From assembly GCA_903881505.1 (NCBI GenBank), contig CAIRTM010000111.1:1-44924 (forward strand): a stretch of DNA of 44,924 bases, in the 5' to 3' direction. Shown here one piece after another: positions 5,731-36,666 of the stretch. The translations under genes were made by a program, and so were the position numbers. The notes under the pieces are model-generated. The model was not told the origin of the DNA. It saw nothing but the letters and a program-made list of their open reading frames with translations, and did no database searches. The stretch is from an uncultured delta proteobacterium. Its GTDB lineage: Bacteria > Desulfobacterota > WTBG01 > CAIYCZ01 > CAIRTM01. The stretch's first letter is position 1; each line of letters opens with the position of its first letter.

Positions 5731-7476
5731 TCAGTATTTAACGATTGCGATGCCCATCTCGCGCAGAAATCCGGAGATCGATTCATTGATGTCGGCGCCG
5801 GTAAGCAGCATACGGCCCTGCGCGGTCTTAACCACATAGCCGGGAACGGTAAGCCGAACATTCTGGGGATCGCTGCCTTCAAAATCGAGCGTTGCCGGCG
5901 GTGGCTGATAATCGGCCCCGCAGAATTTCAGCACGCGGCCTGCAACGGAATCGGGTGTTTCCTCGCCGGGAACTATTTGCAGAAGTTTGAAACCCTGCTG
6001 GGTAATGATGTTTGTGACGCGCCCGGGCAGGCTGTTGAAGTCAATCAGAAGCGTTTTATTGTTGATTATGAACATTCGATCGGCCACAACCTCAAGCGAA
6101 AATCCGCTGTACATATTCTGGAATATATTGGTTTTGTAATCGGTTTTGAAGTCAATGCCCAGCATCCCAAGGATCGTGTCGGTCAGGGCAATGGGAGCTG
6201 CGGCCACATCGCTGTAGGCTGCTGCAGGACGAATGGCGCCTTTCAGCCCGGCCGGGCCTGGCTGCGTTTCAGTTTCAGCGCCGACATCCATGACGTTGAG
6301 GCCTATATTGGACAGGTATGAGCGCAGGGCAGGGTTCATTGAGGGCCTGCCGTTTTTTACAAGGTTCACGACAAAAACATTGCGCAGGCTGCTGTCCCTG
6401 AACACGATCCAGTTGCCGGTCACGCTGAGCTGCACGGCATCGCGGTTGACGGTATAATCAGCGTCTTTTTCAACCTTGTAGAAACCGCACACATCAAGGA
6501 CGCGCCCGATGATTGATTCAATGTCATCACGGGCCTGGACGCTGACAACCTCGGCATTTTTCAAATCGCTTGCAATAACATTGCGCATGTCCTGCGGCAG
6601 GCGTCCGTCGAAATCAAGCACAACTTTCTTGCCACCCGGGAAGTTGAAGGCCGGGAACCGTGTATAATCAAGCCGCATGGCAGCGTTGCTGCCGGGGTTG
6701 ATGACCTCAACGCCGGTCGCATTGTCGGTGCCCTCGAACTGTCGTGTCATGTTTGAGAGCATGTTTTTAATTAAGAGTTCTTCTTCGTTCAGCGGTTCGG
6801 CATCAAATGACATCTCTGGCCGTAGGGCCGCGTAAGCGGATTCAGGCACGCCCGGTTCCGGAAGGGCGCCCTGCGATATGATCTGGCGCATGGCAAAGGC
6901 TTCCCGCGGCACAGTTATCGACTGGCCGGGCTCAATCAGATTGAGGTCTGCGATATCCGGGTTTGCTTCCTGAATCAGGTGTTTCGTGATCCGGTTGAAA
7001 ATTACGGCGTCCGGCAGGCTGAAGCGCGTGCGCAGGATCTGACCGAGGTGCTCGCCTCGTTTGACGGCATGGCGGTAGTCTTGAGTATCGATCATGATGG
7101 TTCGGTTATCGGAACCGTCACCGGGGATATATTTGAAGGGCAGCAGGATGTTCTGGTCGGGGGTCAATACGTTTAAATCAGCAATATCGGGATTAACCGC
7201 GCGGGCGATTTTGCAGAAGAAATTAATGCTGCTGTCGGACATCTTGTACTGCTCGCGCAGAATTTTCCAGAGATGTTCGCCTTTCTGAATGGCATGCTGC
7301 TCGGCGTGGGCCTGCCCTTGGTCGATTTTTTTAACGACGACTGATTTTTTAAATACAAGATGCGGCTCGGGAGCACCCTTGACGTTTTCAGCTGCTGCTG
7401 CGGGCAGGCTGAACAATGCGAGCAATAGACCCGTCATCATGGTGCTCTTTATGGCAGGTTTTTTTATGCGGTCCAT
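5731..7476 (-). CDS. Secreted LysM protein with a duplicated uncharacterised C-terminal domain
   Basis: A 581-residue exported protein. Residues 1-29 form a Sec signal peptide (basic start, MMTGLLLALFSLPAAAA, cleavage near Ala29). Two LysM-like domains follow at about 61-113 and 136-190, each beginning HAxxxGEHLxxIL, containing ANPDIADLN or VNPDIADLN and ending in a hydrophobic LLP/TVP edge. LysM domains bind the glycan of peptidoglycan, so a cell-wall location is inferred. The C-terminal part carries a repeated unit at about 284-398 and 474-581. The shared landmarks are LDFDGRLP/IDFNSLP, then SIIGRVLDVCG/SVAGRVLKFCG with Cys330 and Cys519 in matching places, then an xLxVxGxxV strand and a closing GLNVMDV/GIAIVKY. 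I do not recognise this unit and no known catalytic motif is visible. A DksA-like gene lies upstream and an HTH gene downstream on the same strand. Confidence 0.82.
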   Translation of the reverse strand: MDRIKKPAIKSTMMTGLLLALFSLPAAAAENVKGAPEPHLVFKKSVVVKKIDQGQAHAEQHAIQKGEHLWKILREQYKMSDSSINFFCKIARAVNPDIADLNVLTPDQNILLPFKYIPGDGSDNRTIMIDTQDYRHAVKRGEHLGQILRTRFSLPDAVIFNRITKHLIQEANPDIADLNLIEPGQSITVPREAFAMRQIISQGALPEPGVPESAYAALRPEMSFDAEPLNEEELLIKNMLSNMTRQFEGTDNATGVEVINPGSNAAMRLDYTRFPAFNFPGGKKVVLDFDGRLPQDMRNVIASDLKNAEVVSVQARDDIESIIGRVLDVCGFYKVEKDADYTVNRDAVQLSVTGNWIVFRDSSLRNVFVVNLVKNGRPSMNPALRSYLSNIGLNVMDVGAETETQPGPAGLKGAIRPAAAYSDVAAAPIALTDTILGMLGIDFKTDYKTNIFQNMYSGFSLEVVADRMFIINNKTLLIDFNSLPGRVTNIITQQGFKLLQIVPGEETPDSVAGRVLKFCGADYQPPPATLDFEGSDPQNVRLTVPGYVVKTAQGRMLLTGADINESISGFLREMGIAIVKY

Positions 7477-17838: not shown

Positions 17839-18216
17839 ATGGCAGACCTTAACATGAAAATCCTGATAGTCGATGATTTTTCTACCATGCGGCGTATAGT
17901 GCGCAACATTTTGAAACAGCTTTCCTTCAATAATCTTGATGAGGCTGAAGACGGCGACGTTGCGCTCGAAAAATTGAAAAACGGCAACTATGATTTTGTC
18001 ATTACCGACTGGAACATGCCGAATATGACCGGGCTTGATCTGCTGAAGGCGATACGTTCAGACGGCAGGCTTATGAACATACCTGTTCTGCTGATCACTG
18101 CTGAAGCCGAAAAGGAGAACGTCGTGCTGGCCGCGCAGGCAGGAGTGAATGATTACATCGTCAAGCCGTTTACCGGAGAAGTGCTTCAGCAGAAAATTAA
18201 CCGGATTTTTACATAA
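17839..18216 (+). CDS. cheY: Chemotaxis response regulator CheY
   Basis: A single-domain receiver of 125 residues. The acidic pair is in [15 protein letters not shown], the phosphoacceptor Asp in [18 protein letters not shown], Thr in [12 protein letters not shown] and Lys in DYIVKPFTG. The segments [19 protein letters not shown] and [15 protein letters not shown] closely follow enterobacterial CheY, so this is the best candidate for the CheY that binds the flagellar switch. AAGGAG lies 11 bases before the ATG. It is the first gene of the operon; cheA follows after 33 bases. The usual partner phosphatase CheZ is absent, and the cheX-type gene downstream probably removes its phosphate. Confidence 0.96.
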
Positions 18217-18249: not shown

Positions 18250-21200
18250 ATGTCATTTGAACGCCTTTACGCATTACTGGATGCCGCTGTCGGCGAACTC
18301 GTAACCGCCGACTATGACAGCGTTCAGGATGTGATCGCGTTGTGCGGAAGTGTTGAAAAATTGCGCGACGAATCAATCGGTGCCGGCCATCGGCGCATAC
18401 CGCTTGCGCTCAGCCGTTCAATCGAACTCATAAACGCCATAGTGACCGAAGAGGCATGCGACCGTGCCGCTGTTGTCGACACGCTCAATAAAATTTTTTC
18501 CGCAATACAGCATGCCCTGCGGCCGGGCTCCGATCCTGAAAAAGTCCGCCTCCCCAACTGTTTAATGCAGTCCACTGCCGTTTACGGCGTTAACGAGGGC
18601 CCTGCTTCCGACAGTCCTTATTCTCTTCCGGACTATCTCGACCGCGATATTTTTAATGAATTCCTCAGCGATCAGGAAAGTGTATTGGCGCATTTAGAGG
18701 AGCTGTTGCTCAGTCTTGAGCGCAATCGCGAGTCGGAATCGCTTGCCGATCTCAGGCGCCTGTTTCATACACTGAAAGGCGAAGCCGGTGTTTTTGAACT
18801 GCGCCAGGTAGAACGGCTGTGTCATGCCGCAGAAGACCTGATTGACGCCCAGCCCGACAGCATTCCGGTTGACGTGCTTTTTGCGGTCAAAGACTGGCTT
18901 AAGGGATGCTTTGACGCCCTGAAGCTCTCGCTTCCGGTACCTGCTTTTTCTGCCGCCCTCCTGCGTATTCTTTTCCAGGACCCGCTTGTGGATGGATCTG
19001 ACGTACCCGAAACACCTGACACCAGCATATATGCGGGCGCAGAAACAACCGCTAGATTTGAACTCTCTCCTTTTATAGCCCCAGAAATTTTCGATATTTT
19101 CATTGATGAGCAGAAACATGCGCTCGAAAAAATGGAAGATCTGATCAAACTGCTCGAAAACGGACCCGACATGGAGGCGATTACCGGCCTCAAGCGGATA
19201 TTTCATGTGCTTAACGGCGGATCAGGCGTATGCGGCCTTACCGATATTGAGTGGGTGTGCTGTCAGGTTGAAGATGCCATTGAGAAGGATCCCGCTGCTT
19301 TGGATCATGCATGCCTTCTGTCTGTAAAAAACTGGCTTAAGTCTGTATTCGATGCAGTCAAACAGGACCAGCCCTTGCCAGTGCTTGAAGAAACCCTGCT
19401 GGAAACCATCATACCGGCTTGTCTGCACGTTCAACGATCGCCCGCAGCAGGGGTAGCCGTGCCTGACTCATTGTATGAAGACTCAATTTTTAATGAATTT
19501 GTCGATGACCAGCAAACGGTTCCGGCTTCCATAGAAGCTCTGCTTCTCAAGCTTGAACAGCATCCTGATGCTGAAACGCTTGAAGAACTCAAGCGTGTGT
19601 TTCATACACTCAAGAGTGAAGTCAGGGTTTTCGGACTCTCCGACATTGAAACCTTGTGTCACGCGGTCGAAGATCAGCTCGAGACAAAAGGGACGGCTGT
19701 CAGGATCGATACTCTTTTCGGCGTAAAAGATTTTCTGGCCCGCTGTTTCCGCGCACTCATAAGCCGCGCACCGCTTCCGCAGCTGCCGCCGGCAATGCTC
19801 GCCATGCTGACAATCCCTGATATTGATACTGCTGACGGCCGCCTGACAGCCGCGGTCGTATTTGATCCGCTGAAGGGACCAGTGGAATTTAAAATCGAGC
19901 CCCCTGCTGTAGGGCATGGGCAGCATGTTGATCCGCCCGAGCAGCTGTCCGCATCTCTTAATTTATTGAATGCAGATCTTGACCTGCTTTCGGATTTTGT
20001 CTCCGAGGTGAAGGAACATATAGACAATATTGACACGCGCCTGCTTTCACTTGAAAACAATCCCGGTGACAGTGATCTGCTCAACGCTGTTTTTCGTGTT
20101 TTTCATACCATTAAAGGCGCTGCCGGTTTCCTGGCACTTGATGAAATTTCACGTCTGTCACACATTACCGAAAGTCTTCTTGACGGGGCTCGCAAAGGAG
20201 ACATCCTGCTGAGGGGGGTCAGTATTGACGTGGTTTTCGAAGCAGTTGATGAGATGAAAAATCTGGTAGGAACCATTGAAACAGCCATTTCCTCAGGCAC
20301 GGGCACCTATCCTTCAAGCACTACGGTTGATCGTCTTGTTGATAAAATAAAACGGGTGCTTGCGGTGCGTCCCGATCAGGAACGCCGACTGCTGACCCCG
20401 GCTGATACTCAGGCTGCAGCTGGAGATGTGCTGCTTACCCCCCCCCCTGAACGTTTGTCCTCAACACCACGTATGCCTCCGGTTACTGACGTCGGTATCG
20501 ATGCCTCTGTAAAAATCGTTCCGGCAATCAGTTCCGATGCGTCCTCATCCAGTGCCAGCCAAGCAGCCGTTGGCGGCGAAGCGGATGATTTTTTTGAAAT
20601 ACAGGCGGAACCCTATGACGATGAAACCGAACCGGCCGTAATTTCCTCCGAATCGGCGCAACCTGTACAGTATCGGGCAAAAATCAAGGAATCCATCAAG
20701 GTCGACGCTGAAAATCTTGACAAGCTTATCGACGCGATAGGCGAGCTTGTGATTATTGAGGCGATGATACGCCAGGACGGCACCCTGCGAACCGCCGCCT
20801 CATCGAATTTACTGCGCACTATCACGCAGATGGATAAAATTACCCGGGAACTCCAAACGCTCGGCATGTCGCTGCGCATGATACCGATCAAACCGACTTT
20901 TCAAAAAATGGCACGTGTCGTCCGCGATCTTGCCAAAAAAGGATCGAAAAAAATCGAATTTATCACACAGGGCGAGGAAACCATGCTTGATAAAAGCGTG
21001 GTAGACCGCATCGGTGATCCCCTGATTCATCTTGTTCGAAATGCTGTTGACCATGGTATTGAATCATCCCACGATGACCGGCGACGCAACGGGAAAAATC
21101 CGGTCGGCCGTATTTCCCTGAACGCGTTCCACAAAGGCGGGAACATCTATGTTGAAATTCGCGATGACGGCCGCGGTCTCGACCGGGCTGCTATCATTCG

Positions 21201-21867
21201 CAAAGCCGCTGAAAAGGGAATGATCCGTGAAGGTCAACAACTCAGTGAACGCGAGATATATAATTTAATTCTCCTGCCCGGGTTTTCAACCGCTGCTAAA
21301 GTAACCGATGTATCCGGTCGCGGGGTCGGCATGGATGTTGTCAAGCGTACAATTGAAGACTTGCGCGGCACTATCGATATCCATTCCGAACATGGAACTG
21401 GAACGACTATCACATTGCGGCTGCCGCTGACGCTTGCGATTATCGACGGGATGCTGGTCCGCATCGGTACCGAACGCTATATCATACCGACACTCTCGAT
21501 TGTCAAATCGATCCGACCCTGTCCCGAAGATGTCACAACGGTCGTCAACAAGGGCGAAATGGTAGCCGTGCGGGATACGCTGATTCCCCTGCTCAGGCTG
21601 GCCAGGCTCTTTGACATCAGGGACGCTGTTCAGAATATCGAAGACGGCATTGTTATCGTTGTTGAGGACAGCGGAAGAATGACGGGCTTGCTTGTTGATG
21701 AACTTCTGGGACAGCAGTCAACCGTCATCAAGTCACTCGGAGCGCTTAAGGGGATGGCCGGAATTTCAGGCGGTTCTATCATGACAGACGGCAGCGTGGG
21801 CATTATCCTTGATATTGCCGGAGTCGTTAAACTCGCATTCGGGGACAACGCGATTGAACAGGTATAA
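18250..21867 (+). CDS. cheA: Chemotaxis histidine kinase CheA with four HPt domains
   Basis: 1205 residues from the ATG at 18250 (an in-frame TTG at 18241 is less likely), almost twice the usual CheA size. Four HPt-like domains carry His at about 173 (FHTLKGEAG), 319 (FHVLNGGSG), 451 (FHTLKSEVR) and 619 (FHTIKGAAG). The fourth is canonical and the first nearly so; the second and third lack the full TxKG-x-AG surroundings. HPt 1-3 each have the same extension (e.g. LFAVKDWLKGCFDAL) and form a tandem family. A linker of about 130 residues with no clear CheY-binding P2 domain contains a C10 tract (20438-20447). Then come dimerisation (ESIKVDAENLDKLIDAIGELV), the ATPase (HLVRNAVDHGIE, DDGRGLD, GRGVGMDVVKR) and the CheW-like domain (~1062-1200). 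It receives signals from receptors via CheW and phosphorylates CheY and CheB. Confidence 0.96.
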   Translation: MSFERLYALLDAAVGELVTADYDSVQDVIALCGSVEKLRDESIGAGHRRIPLALSRSIELINAIVTEEACDRAAVVDTLNKIFSAIQHALRPGSDPEKVRLPNCLMQSTAVYGVNEGPASDSPYSLPDYLDRDIFNEFLSDQESVLAHLEELLLSLERNRESESLADLRRLFHTLKGEAGVFELRQVERLCHAAEDLIDAQPDSIPVDVLFAVKDWLKGCFDALKLSLPVPAFSAALLRILFQDPLVDGSDVPETPDTSIYAGAETTARFELSPFIAPEIFDIFIDEQKHALEKMEDLIKLLENGPDMEAITGLKRIFHVLNGGSGVCGLTDIEWVCCQVEDAIEKDPAALDHACLLSVKNWLKSVFDAVKQDQPLPVLEETLLETIIPACLHVQRSPAAGVAVPDSLYEDSIFNEFVDDQQTVPASIEALLLKLEQHPDAETLEELKRVFHTLKSEVRVFGLSDIETLCHAVEDQLETKGTAVRIDTLFGVKDFLARCFRALISRAPLPQLPPAMLAMLTIPDIDTADGRLTAAVVFDPLKGPVEFKIEPPAVGHGQHVDPPEQLSASLNLLNADLDLLSDFVSEVKEHIDNIDTRLLSLENNPGDSDLLNAVFRVFHTIKGAAGFLALDEISRLSHITESLLDGARKGDILLRGVSIDVVFEAVDEMKNLVGTIETAISSGTGTYPSSTTVDRLVDKIKRVLAVRPDQERRLLTPADTQAAAGDVLLTPPPERLSSTPRMPPVTDVGIDASVKIVPAISSDASSSSASQAAVGGEADDFFEIQAEPYDDETEPAVISSESAQPVQYRAKIKESIKVDAENLDKLIDAIGELVIIEAMIRQDGTLRTAASSNLLRTITQMDKITRELQTLGMSLRMIPIKPTFQKMARVVRDLAKKGSKKIEFITQGEETMLDKSVVDRIGDPLIHLVRNAVDHGIESSHDDRRRNGKNPVGRISLNAFHKGGNIYVEIRDDGRGLDRAAIIRKAAEKGMIREGQQLSEREIYNLILLPGFSTAAKVTDVSGRGVGMDVVKRTIEDLRGTIDIHSEHGTGTTITLRLPLTLAIIDGMLVRIGTERYIIPTLSIVKSIRPCPEDVTTVVNKGEMVAVRDTLIPLLRLARLFDIRDAVQNIEDGIVIVVEDSGRMTGLLVDELLGQQSTVIKSLGALKGMAGISGGSIMTDGSVGIILDIAGVVKLAFGDNAIEQV

Positions 21868-21919: not shown

Positions 21920-22438
21920 ATGACCGATATTAACAGAAACGATGCAGGAGGTCTTTCACGAAAGGAAAAATTCCTGACTTTCAATCTGGCAGGAGAGCAG
22001 TACGGACTTGAAATCCTTAAAGTTCGTGAAATTATCGGCCTCATGAACATAACATCTGTACCGAGAACGCCGGACTTCGTGCGGGGCGTCATCAACCTGC
22101 GCGGCAAAGTCATACCGATTATAGACCTGCGCACCAAGTTTGGCATCGCTGCCATTGAGGATACCGAGCAATCCTGTATAATTGTCGTCGATATCATTGA
22201 AGATCAGAATGCCGTACAAATGGGTATCATTGTCGACAGCGTTTCCGAGGTTCTCGATATTCATGTCAGCGATATAGACGAAGCCCCCCGGTTCAGTGCG
22301 TCTGTTGACACCTCTTTCATCAAAGGAATAGCCAAAACAAAAGGCGGTGTTAAAATTTTGCTCAAAATAGAGGATGTGCTGACAACGGATGAAATCCGGG
22401 GGTTGCCGTCAACAGCCGGAATGGATGCTGATGAATAG
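21920..22438 (+). CDS. cheW: Chemotaxis coupling protein CheW
   Basis: A 172-residue scaffold that docks CheA to receptor signalling tips. The CheW fold is clear: KFLTFNLAGEQYGLEILKVREIIGLMNITSVPRTPDFVRGVINLRGKVIPIIDLR is the diagnostic N-terminal half (the NLRGKV-x-P-x-xDLR loop binds CheA and receptors). It is followed by CIIVVDI and MGIIVDSVSEVLDI. The extra ~30-residue C-terminus (TTDEIRGLPSTAGMDADE) is acidic. It lies 52 bases after cheA and 20 bases before cheR. Confidence 0.96.
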   Translation: MTDINRNDAGGLSRKEKFLTFNLAGEQYGLEILKVREIIGLMNITSVPRTPDFVRGVINLRGKVIPIIDLRTKFGIAAIEDTEQSCIIVVDIIEDQNAVQMGIIVDSVSEVLDIHVSDIDEAPRFSASVDTSFIKGIAKTKGGVKILLKIEDVLTTDEIRGLPSTAGMDADE

Positions 22439-22458
22439 GCCGCCGGTGGGCTTGATTG

Positions 22459-23259
22459 ATGGACAGCGCGACCTTTGAACGCCTGCGTACGATTATATAC
22501 GACAGCAGCGGCATCAGCCTGCGGGAAACCAAAGAGGCTATGGTGTCGGCTCGTATTGCAAAACGCATGCGCGCCCTGGGCTTGGAAACACACGAACAAT
22601 ACCTGCGCGTTCTTGAGCATGACGACGGCGGCGAAACAACTCGGTTTCTTGATGTAATATCGACCAATGTAACCAGTTTTTTCAGGGAAAGTCAGCATTT
22701 CGATTTTTTGCGTGATGTTTTGACGGCGCGACAGAGAAGCGGGATCTCAAAAATCCGCATATGGTCCGCTGCGGCCTCAACAGGTGAAGAAGCGCTTTCG
22801 GCTGCAATGGTCGCATGGGACGTTTTTGGAGCACGGCCGGTTGATTGCAAAATACTGGCGACCGACATTTCCACACGGGCGCTTGTCAAGGCTCAGCAGG
22901 GAATATATGATGAACTTCAGATGGAAAACGTTCCCGAGCAGCTGCGCAGGAGGTTTTTTGTGCGCATGCGCGACGGCAATGTTACGCGGTACCGCGCCTG
23001 CGTCGAACTCATGGGCCGCATCGTCTACCGCCGGCTCAACCTCTCACGTCCGCCTTTTCCCATGCGCGGGCCGCTTGATGTTGTTTTTTGCAGAAACGTT
23101 ATGATATATTTCGACAACGAGGTCAGAAACAGGCTTATTAAAGAAATATACAGACTGTTGCAGCCCGGCGGTTATCTGTTTACCGGACATGCTGAAAGTC
23201 TAAACAGCCTAAAAACCGATTTTGTGTGCATACGGCCAACAATATATCAGAAGCACTAA
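22459..23259 (+). CDS. cheR: Chemoreceptor glutamate methyltransferase CheR
   Basis: A SAM-dependent enzyme that methylates glutamates on chemoreceptors for adaptation; 266 residues from the ATG at 22459. The N-terminal helical domain (FERLRTIIYDSSGISLRETKEAMVSARIAKRMRALG) precedes the Rossmann methyltransferase: RIWSAAASTGEEALSAAMV for SAM binding, KILATDISTRALVKAQQGIY, and DVVFCRNVMIYFDNEVRNRLIKEIYRLLQPGGYLFTGHAESL, all typical of CheR. The usual SAM motif GCSTGEE reads AASTGEE, as it also does in some family members. Receptors are not encoded in the window. Confidence 0.96.
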   Translation: MDSATFERLRTIIYDSSGISLRETKEAMVSARIAKRMRALGLETHEQYLRVLEHDDGGETTRFLDVISTNVTSFFRESQHFDFLRDVLTARQRSGISKIRIWSAAASTGEEALSAAMVAWDVFGARPVDCKILATDISTRALVKAQQGIYDELQMENVPEQLRRRFFVRMRDGNVTRYRACVELMGRIVYRRLNLSRPPFPMRGPLDVVFCRNVMIYFDNEVRNRLIKEIYRLLQPGGYLFTGHAESLNSLKTDFVCIRPTIYQKH

Positions 23260-23299: not shown

Positions 23300-23779
23300 G
23301 TGAAAACGATTGTTGTCGGCATATCTGATATGAAGGTATCGAACAGGCCCGATGAGGTTTTGATCACCTATTCGCTGGGATCTTGTTTGGGAGTCATCGT
23401 CTATGATCCTGTGGCGCGTGTTGCAGGGCTGCTGCACAGCATGCTGCCCCTGTCAAAAATTGATACACAGAAAGCCAAAGCCGCGCCATACATGTTTGTC
23501 GATACAGGCATACCTCTGTTGTTCAAGGAAGCCTACTGTCTGGGTGCCGAAAAGCGTAACATGATTGTAAAGGCCGTCGGCTGCTCGTCCCTTCTTGACG
23601 AAAAGGGTTTTTTCAAAATAGGTGAGCGCAATTTTACTGTTTTGCGCAAGCTGTTGTGGAAAAATAATATCCTTATTGAAAAACAGGATATCGGGGGGAG
23701 CTTGTCGCGAACGGCATCCATTATTGTCGCCAGCGGTGAAGTAAGAATCAAATCAGGAGGCCGTGAGTATGCCCTGTAA
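23300..23779 (+). CDS. cheD: Chemoreceptor glutamine deamidase CheD
   Basis: 159 residues. CheD deamidates receptor glutamines and in many bacteria binds and stimulates CheC/CheX-type phosphatases. The catalytic triad region is intact: TYSLGSCLGVIVYDP provides the Thr and the nucleophilic Cys, and AGLLHSMLP the His. The remaining conserved blocks are visible (FVDTGIPLLFKEA, GAEKRNMIVKAVGCSSLLD, FKIGERNFTVLRKLLWKNNILIEKQDIGGSLSRT). The start is GTG at 23300 with GGAGAG 5 bases before it. It lies 40 bases after cheR. Together with the cheX-type gene it forms an adaptation branch absent from E. coli. Confidence 0.95.
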   Translation: MKTIVVGISDMKVSNRPDEVLITYSLGSCLGVIVYDPVARVAGLLHSMLPLSKIDTQKAKAAPYMFVDTGIPLLFKEAYCLGAEKRNMIVKAVGCSSLLDEKGFFKIGERNFTVLRKLLWKNNILIEKQDIGGSLSRTASIIVASGEVRIKSGGREYAL

Positions 23780-23866: not shown

Positions 23867-24242
23867 ATGTCATTTAACATACTCATCGTCGATGACTCAC
23901 GTACAATCCGTTCAGTCATTAAAAAAACCTTGTACATAGCCGGCGTGCCGCTCAATGAGGTGTATGAGGCCAGCAACGGACTTGAAGGGCTTCAGTTTAT
24001 GCGTGATAACTGGATTGACCTGTGCTTTGCAGACATCAACATGCCGGTCATGAACGGCATTGAAATGATCGAAAAAATGCTTGAAGACCAGGTGCTGGCG
24101 AAACTGCCGGTCGTCATCGTTTCCACCGAGGGCAGCAAAACACGCATTGAGGAGCTTTTTAAAAAAGGCGTGCGGGCCTATCTGCGCAAGCCCATAACGC
24201 CCGAAATAGTGCGTAATGTCGTCAAGGAGATTCTGGGAGATT

Positions 24243-24253
<11 letters not shown>
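23867..24253 (+). CDS. Second CheY-like single-domain response regulator
   Basis: A 128-residue receiver. The acidic pair is in ILIVDDSRTIRSVI, the phosphoacceptor Asp in LCFADINMPVMNGIEMIEKM, Ser/Thr in VVIVSTEGSKTRIEEL and Lys in AYLRKPITPE. It is less like the switch-binding CheY than the first operon gene, so it may be a phosphate sink or serve another target. A good ribosome site (GGAGG, 9 bases upstream) precedes the ATG. Its 3' end overlaps the next gene by 11 bases, which suggests coupled translation with the phosphatase. Confidence 0.94.
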
Positions 24254-25740
<1,487 letters not shown>

Positions 25741-35745: not shown

Positions 35746-36666
35746 ATGACTGACAGCAGCGGCAGAGTACTCGTCGTTGACGACAATGAGTTGATTCGCA
35801 GGCTTGCCACCGCACTTCTGGCAAAAAAAAACTATGAAATCGCAACCGCCACGAACGGCATGAGCGCACTGAGCCGCGCTGCTGGATTTGACCCTGACGT
35901 GATTCTGCTCGACGTCATGATGCCCGAAATGGATGGTTTTGAGTGCTGCCGCCGCTTGAAGGCCCATGCCGCAACCAGGGATATCCCGGTTGTGATGGTT
36001 TCGAGCAATACTGACGCGATTGATAAAATCAAGGGACTCGAAACAGGAGCTGCCGATTATATAGTTAAACCCTTTGATTACGGGGAACTTCTCGCCCGCG
36101 TGGCCACGCAGGTTAAGATGAAGCGCCTGCTTGATGAGCTTGAAAAAAAAAATGAGCTACTTCAGGAAATGGTCAAGAAGGACAGCCTTACGAATCTGTA
36201 CAATCACCGCTATTTTCATGAGCGGCTCAGTGATGAATTCAGCCTGTGCCGCGGGCGACAGGAGGCGCTGAGCTGCCTTGTATGTGATATCGATCATTTC
36301 AAAAACATCAACGACACCTTCGGGCATCAGGCCGGCGATACAATTCTCCAGTCGCTGGCATCGGTTTTTCGCGAACTTCTCCGCCGAGACGATGTTGCTG
36401 GCCGCTACGGCGGCGAGGAATTTGCGTTTATCCTGCCGCGCACAGGCACCGATGAAGCTGCCGTTCAGGCTGAACAGATCCGTTGTCAGGTCGAAAAAAC
36501 CCACTTTAATTTCAGCGGAACAGCAGTAAACGTTACCGTCAGCGTAGGCGGCGCATGCTATCCTGCTGTGCATGCCCAAACCTCCAGCGAGCTTATCAGG
36601 CTGGCTGATAATGCTCTGTATGCCGCTAAACAGCGCGGCAGAAATACCGTTGTTATCGCACCGTGA
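35746..36666 (+). CDS. Response regulator with GGDEF diguanylate cyclase output (PleD-like)
   Basis: 306 residues. The receiver (1-125) has [18 protein letters not shown], phosphoacceptor Asp in [17 protein letters not shown], and Lys in [12 protein letters not shown] short coiled-coil linker (about 125-145, [15 protein letters not shown]) joins it to the GGDEF domain (from ~145), which starts [16 protein letters not shown]. The active motif RYGGEEF is intact, preceded by the RxxD inhibitory site (RRDD five residues upstream), so it should make c-di-GMP and be subject to product inhibition. AAGGAG lies 5 bases before the ATG. The hybrid kinase gene follows immediately and is its obvious candidate partner. 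Confidence 0.94.

Follow-up and report, generated by a model that had tools for sequence, protein, structure and literature searches.

CheA kinases with several HPt domains are already known. According to Berry et al. (2023, PMC10782961), every flagellar CheA of class F4 has three Hpt domains, and more than 90% of multi-Hpt CheAs carry a C-terminal receiver domain. ChpA of Pseudomonas aeruginosa and other multi-HPt CheAs of the Tfp/ACF class have a series of HPt domains preceding a single kinase core, no P2 domain, and some HPt domains that deviate at key positions (PMC10782961, PMC12632253). More than half of CheAs are devoid of P2, and Berry et al. (2023) cite work in E. coli in which an overexpressed HPt made good the missing P2 (PMC10782961).

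In the present study we analysed a CheA with four HPt domains, encoded within a 44,924-nucleotide stretch of DNA of an uncultured delta proteobacterium (hereafter, the window). This protein shares the above features of ChpA, but it has no C-terminal receiver domain, and its operon, flagellin-linked in relatives, encodes an E. coli-like CheY together with CheX and CheD. It resembles the class F4 proteins in being a multi-HPt CheA, putatively of a flagellar class; however, the F4 proteins have three Hpts, whereas the number of HPts in the family described here varies from two to four and its host genus shows no flagellar markers. A sequence-only reading of the window had contrasted this CheA with the pilus-type ChpA; multi-HPt proteins do exist in that class, but the contrast was too sharp, given the three Hpts of the F4 CheAs (PMC10782961). 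With the canonical CheAs of E. coli and Thermotoga maritima the window CheA shares the P3-P4-P5 order and an HPt domain (HPt4) matching the structures 1tqg and 1i5n; it differs from them in having three extra HPts (N-units 1–3) and an N-domain, and in having no P2. It is further set apart by the change in copy number among close relatives, which provides a natural series of one, two and three N-units in near-identical operons, suited to testing HPt number and the roles of individual units.

Gene and domain architecture of the window CheA

The cheA gene extends on the + strand from an ATG at position 18250 to a stop codon at 21867 (1205 aa); a TTG is present three codons upstream of the ATG. 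A Pfam search of the protein identified four HPt stretches (PF01627), followed by H-kinase_dim, HATPase_c and CheW domains, i.e. the order of a CheA histidine kinase, and gave no match to P2/CheY-binding or Response_reg profiles. In the whole-genome search the four HPts scored, in order, 51.3, 37.8, 44.8 and 55.6 bits (E values 3e-13, 5e-9, 4e-11 and 1.5e-14), all above the curated PF01627 cut-off of 24.6 bits, and each contains a phosphoacceptor His (aa 173, 319, 452 and 619). The four HPts proposed from the sequence were thus recovered, with three of their His residues correctly placed and the third found at 452 instead of about 451. The features of the gene and of its operon are as follows:

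17839..18216, +, CheY1, E. coli-like response regulator (Response_reg, E 2.6e-31)
18250..21867, +, CheA with four HPt domains, 1205 aa (Pfam, genome search)
18250..18549, +, N-domain, aa 1–100, four-helical and lacking a His, conserved across the family, fold weakly similar to P1
18625..18954, +, N-unit 1, HPt, aa 126–235, His173 (51.3 bits)
19057..19395, +, N-unit 2, HPt, aa 270–382, His319, Asn+3, Cys+19 (37.8 bits)
19462..19791, +, N-unit 3, HPt, aa 405–514, His452, Ser+4, Arg+7 (44.8 bits)
19966..20295, +, HPt4, the canonical P1, aa 573–682, His619 (55.6 bits, P1 clade, 1tqg match)
20296..20688, +, linker without recognisable P2, fast evolving (40% identical between congeners)
20689..20871, +, dimerisation domain, P3 (H-kinase_dim, E 4.7e-12)
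21016..21432, +, ATP-binding kinase domain, P4 (HATPase_c, E 1.3e-16)
21448..21831, +, CheW-like domain, P5 (CheW, E 3.4e-22)
21920..22438, +, CheW (Pfam)
22456..23259, +, CheR (Pfam)
23300..23779, +, CheD (Pfam)
23867..24253, +, CheY2, conserved in relatives (Pfam)
24216..24704, +, CheX phosphatase (Pfam)
24712..25740, +, CheB (Pfam)

The four-HPt architecture is almost certainly real. The genomes are metagenome-derived drafts, a circumstance in which an assembly or annotation artefact might be suspected, but this explanation retains practically no probability and is refuted by the congener G001, in which the search for the same architecture in related genomes revealed an equivalent 1205-aa frame with the same four HPts (77% identity).

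An AlphaFold2 model of residues 1–715 (seven sequences, mean pLDDT 71) consists of four bundles, each of four long helices, with the phosphoacceptor His located in helix 2 in every case; its overall pTM is low (0.28) and it does not fix the placement of the bundles relative to one another. In a Foldseek search the model matched the P1 structures of CheA in the PDB (1tqg, TMt 0.93; 1i5n, 0.86–0.90), with HPt4 matching 1tqg. A second motif, previously described as an extension shared by the first three units, fits N-units 1 and 3 and, loosely, N-unit 2 (VKNWLKSVFDAV). As a separate added element it had to be rejected, since in the AlphaFold2 model it forms helix 4 of the respective HPt bundles (aa 207–225, 353–371 and 486–504). 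The N-domain was also considered as a fifth HPt and discarded, for it has no sequence support, no His and a fold only weakly similar to P1 (best E 0.17, TM ~0.6); this conserved four-helix region is possibly a degenerate HPt.

Relationships and copy number of the N-units

The similarity of the units was assessed by local alignment against 500 shuffles. The z scores obtained within the group of N-units (33 for units 1 and 2, 47 for units 1 and 3, 31 for units 2 and 3) were higher than those of the same units compared with HPt4 (11–23). In the HPt-domain tree (n=35) the N-units were placed on one side and the P1 domains on the other, with support of 100/100 each (99/97 in another tree); HPt4, the ordinary P1, belongs to the second of these branches, which is the older one. 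In the kinase-core tree all CheAs with N-units formed one clade (99/95). Because the two types of HPt separate and the kinases carrying N-units share one core clade, this sample indicates a single gain of the N-unit followed by amplification.

Analysis of the related genomes revealed (i) the same four HPts in both species of the genus, (ii) two N-units plus P1 in G003, and (iii) a single N-unit plus P1 in each of four genomes (G002, G004, G005 and G006). The trees point to an old accessory HPt which was amplified in tandem and reached three copies in this genus. The earlier view of units 1–3 as a tandem family that arose within the gene lineage is thus upheld by the alignments, the trees and the relatives with one, two or three copies. 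Orthologues with fewer HPts, which had been named as potential evidence against this view, do occur, but the tree indicates a gain of copies rather than unrelated helical filler. Units 1 and 3 of the genus are sisters in the HPt tree (95/92), and the stem of unit 2 is long (1.56 changes per column, as against a between-species path of 0.19). A single clade of the three N-units of the genus was neither recovered nor rejected (AU p 0.27), and the duplication seen in G003 may share its origin with those of this genus or be separate from them.

The named relatives mostly bear Deltaproteobacteria or Thermodesulfobacteriota MAG labels. When the N-unit profile was applied to 395 genomes of the phylum, strong matches outside this CheA family were noted in four of them (G170, G019, G286 and G048), a count obtained by inspection of scores, in which the weaker matches resemble ordinary P1.

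A distant case is provided by the CheA of MAG CSMAG_3047 (L055:4121-6262), which is labelled as Desulfobacteraceae. This protein resembles the window CheA in the layout of N-domain and N-unit and in its kinase core, which falls inside the N-unit clade; it differs in having no P1, a single N-unit being its sole HPt, and its 9-kb contig yielded neither a P1 nor an HPt encoded separately. Since the other members of the clade have P1, this domain was probably lost from the L055 protein, and since only the N-unit is left, such a unit can probably serve as the sole phosphoacceptor. L055 would thus represent an accessory HPt kept after loss of the normal P1.

Two further CheAs were recorded. A che operon of the same type, including a CheA with an N-unit and P1, is present in a Fibrobacter sp.-labelled MAG (L056:2236-10746); the core of this CheA groups with the Desulfobacteraceae-labelled one, which may reflect gene transfer or a mislabelled bin. 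The genome of the window encodes a second CheA (contig C23, L160:2474-5227), located directly downstream of an MCP gene and showing the usual multi-HPt layout, with two HPts and a C-terminal receiver domain.

Residues surrounding the phosphoacceptor His and selection on the units

The roles of P1 residues follow those of His45, Lys48, His64 and Glu67 of T. maritima CheA. Counting from the phosphoacceptor His, canonical P1 domains contain Lys+3, Gly+4, His+19 and Glu+22, and all four residues are retained in N-unit 1. N-unit 2 has Asn+3 in place of Lys and Cys+19 in place of the second His in both species. N-unit 3 retains Lys, His and Glu and has Arg+7 in both species, whereas its Ser+4 is confined to the window species, the congener G001 having Gly. 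Across seven relatives the phosphoacceptor His is present in every unit, as the sequence-only reading had stated for the window, and Lys+3 and His+19 occur in all units except unit 2. A gradual decay of the motif from unit 1 to unit 3, claimed in the same reading, is contradicted by the residue table and by G001: the unit in which two residues around the His were lost is unit 2, and Ser+4 of unit 3 is specific to one species.

Selection was estimated with the Nei-Gojobori method by comparing the window species with G001; dS values were near or above 1, which makes the ratios rough. The units gave dN of 0.08–0.16 and dS of 1.05–1.28, and the linkers dN of 0.18–0.57. The approximate dN/dS of units 1, 2 and 3 was 0.08, 0.06 and 0.15, respectively (unit 3 having the fastest dN), and that of P1 was 0.02, compared with 0.13–0.34 for those linkers with a finite estimate. 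Purifying selection thus acts on every HPt unit in this comparison of two species. Unit 2 changed most and then became conserved: only 2 of the 36 residues of its core differ between the species.

Genomic context and the flagellum

CheY1 has E. coli CheY as its best PDB match, aligned without gaps. The protein keeps the catalytic residues and is under strong purifying selection (93% identity between the two species, dN/dS about 0.035). It also retains the positions that contact FliM.

In G003–G006 the gene order is CheY1-CheA-(CheW)-CheR-CheD-CheY2-CheX-CheB. In all four genomes the operon is linked to flagellar genes: it lies beside at least one of the cNMP-binding, MiaB and PHP genes, followed by a flagellin gene (Pfam), which is adjoined by a FliD-like gene (judged from sequence only). 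The window retains the cNMP-binding, MiaB and PHP genes near the operon, but the flagellin block of the relatives is absent from it. Other differences and neighbours include a gene of ~280 aa between CheD and CheY2 in G003/G005 (L162:5202-6050 and L164:14458-15297), absent from the window, and a 581-aa ORF of the window (5731-7476, - strand) for which Pfam gave no match at 1e-5.

Neither draft assembly of the genus (G000, 97% complete; G001, 100%) gave a match to FlhA, flagellin, FliM/N or rod proteins, whereas all of these were found in G003, G004 and G006, with rod genes on 2–4 contigs each. G005 yielded flagellin and one rod gene only, and no flagellar markers were found in G002 (76% complete). 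Their absence from G000 and G001 and presence in G003, G004 and G006 indicate that the flagellum was likely lost in this genus. The operon appears to be flagellar by ancestry only, inherited from a flagellated ancestor; its previous designation as a flagellar-type cluster fits this ancestry, as shown by the flagellin linkage in four relatives, but not its present function, given the lack of markers in the genus. If the flagellum is truly gone, selection has maintained a flagellar signalling operon for a different task. Such an operon does not persist in every lineage that has lost its flagellum, since G007 and G010, also without flagellar markers, gave no match to the window CheA at E 1e-30. 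A relationship between unit number and flagellum loss was considered and proved not clean, as the flagellated G003 has two N-units and the marker-less G002 has one.

A flagellum is probably not what the operon controls in this genus. Each of the 11 genomes of the order encodes PilT-family proteins, and eight MCP matches were found in G000; thus, receptors exist, and type IV pili may be a candidate output. A broader scenario, which we regard as speculative and rather less probable than its opposite, is that a che operon of flagellar lineage persisted after the flagellum had been lost and came to serve a different output. N-unit amplification and the rapid change and subsequent fixation of unit 2 would have been part of this rewiring, the CheA moving independently toward the multi-HPt layout that is usual in pilus-type and other non-flagellar systems. 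The conserved FliM-contact surface of CheY1, however, is more in keeping with a flagellar motor than with a different target.

Possible roles of the additional HPt domains

The phosphate flow that we infer begins with the kinase domain, which would phosphorylate P1 as well as, at a minimum, N-units 1 and 3. In a kinase devoid of P2, the tethered N-units would multiply the phosphodonor sites near CheY1, CheY2 and CheB, and unit 2 may be a specialised site (for docking, or for retrieving phosphate from a receiver) and not a direct substrate of the kinase. This added phosphodonor capacity with a specialised unit 2 is the reading we favour, although we give it somewhat less than an even chance; it is preferred because the receiver set is constant, CheX is present and P2 is absent. 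Three copies are not accounted for by the missing P2 in itself, since the relatives with one N-unit also lack it, and normal phosphorylation of unit 2, which is conceivable, would speak against the proposal.

A division of labour, in which each HPt prefers a different receiver (CheY1, CheY2, CheB or one encoded elsewhere in the genome) and thereby widens the outputs, is a less probable but still appreciable alternative. It would agree with the divergence of the units and the conserved residues peculiar to unit 2, as well as with the response regulator with GGDEF encoded in the window outside the che operon (35746-36666), a possible further receiver; the same idea has been discussed for ChpA (PMC12632253). 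However, CheY1, CheY2 and CheB form an identical set in relatives with one or two N-units, so copy number is not tied to receiver number, which weakens the earlier suggestion that the extra domains serve different CheYs. The loss from unit 2 of the Lys and the second His that lie near the phosphoacceptor in P1 domains, with the phosphoacceptor itself kept, would also suit a buffer or relay, i.e. at least one N-unit taking phosphate back and smoothing or delaying the signal, as has been proposed for the reverse flow of ChpA. We consider this unlikely: there is no receiver domain in cis, as opposed to more than 90% of multi-HPt CheAs (PMC10782961), and with the CheX phosphatase present a phosphate sink is not obviously needed.

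The remaining explanations assign little or no importance to phosphorylation of the copies. Slightly less likely again than a buffer is that the units are helical modules which bind partners or set distances in the array. ChpA does include HPt domains that are not phosphorylated (PMC12632253) and helix 4 of the N-units is conserved, but against this explanation stand the retention of the His in all units of the seven relatives and of Lys+3 and His+19 in all units but unit 2, and the L055 protein, which has an N-unit only. Neutral duplication, with copies born of recombination, tolerated and now decaying, could be read from Ser+4, Arg+7 and the fast dN of unit 3; it is nevertheless very improbable in view of the low dN/dS of the units (about 0.06–0.15), the retention of all phosphoacceptor His residues, and the near-identity of the unit 2 core at dS above 1.
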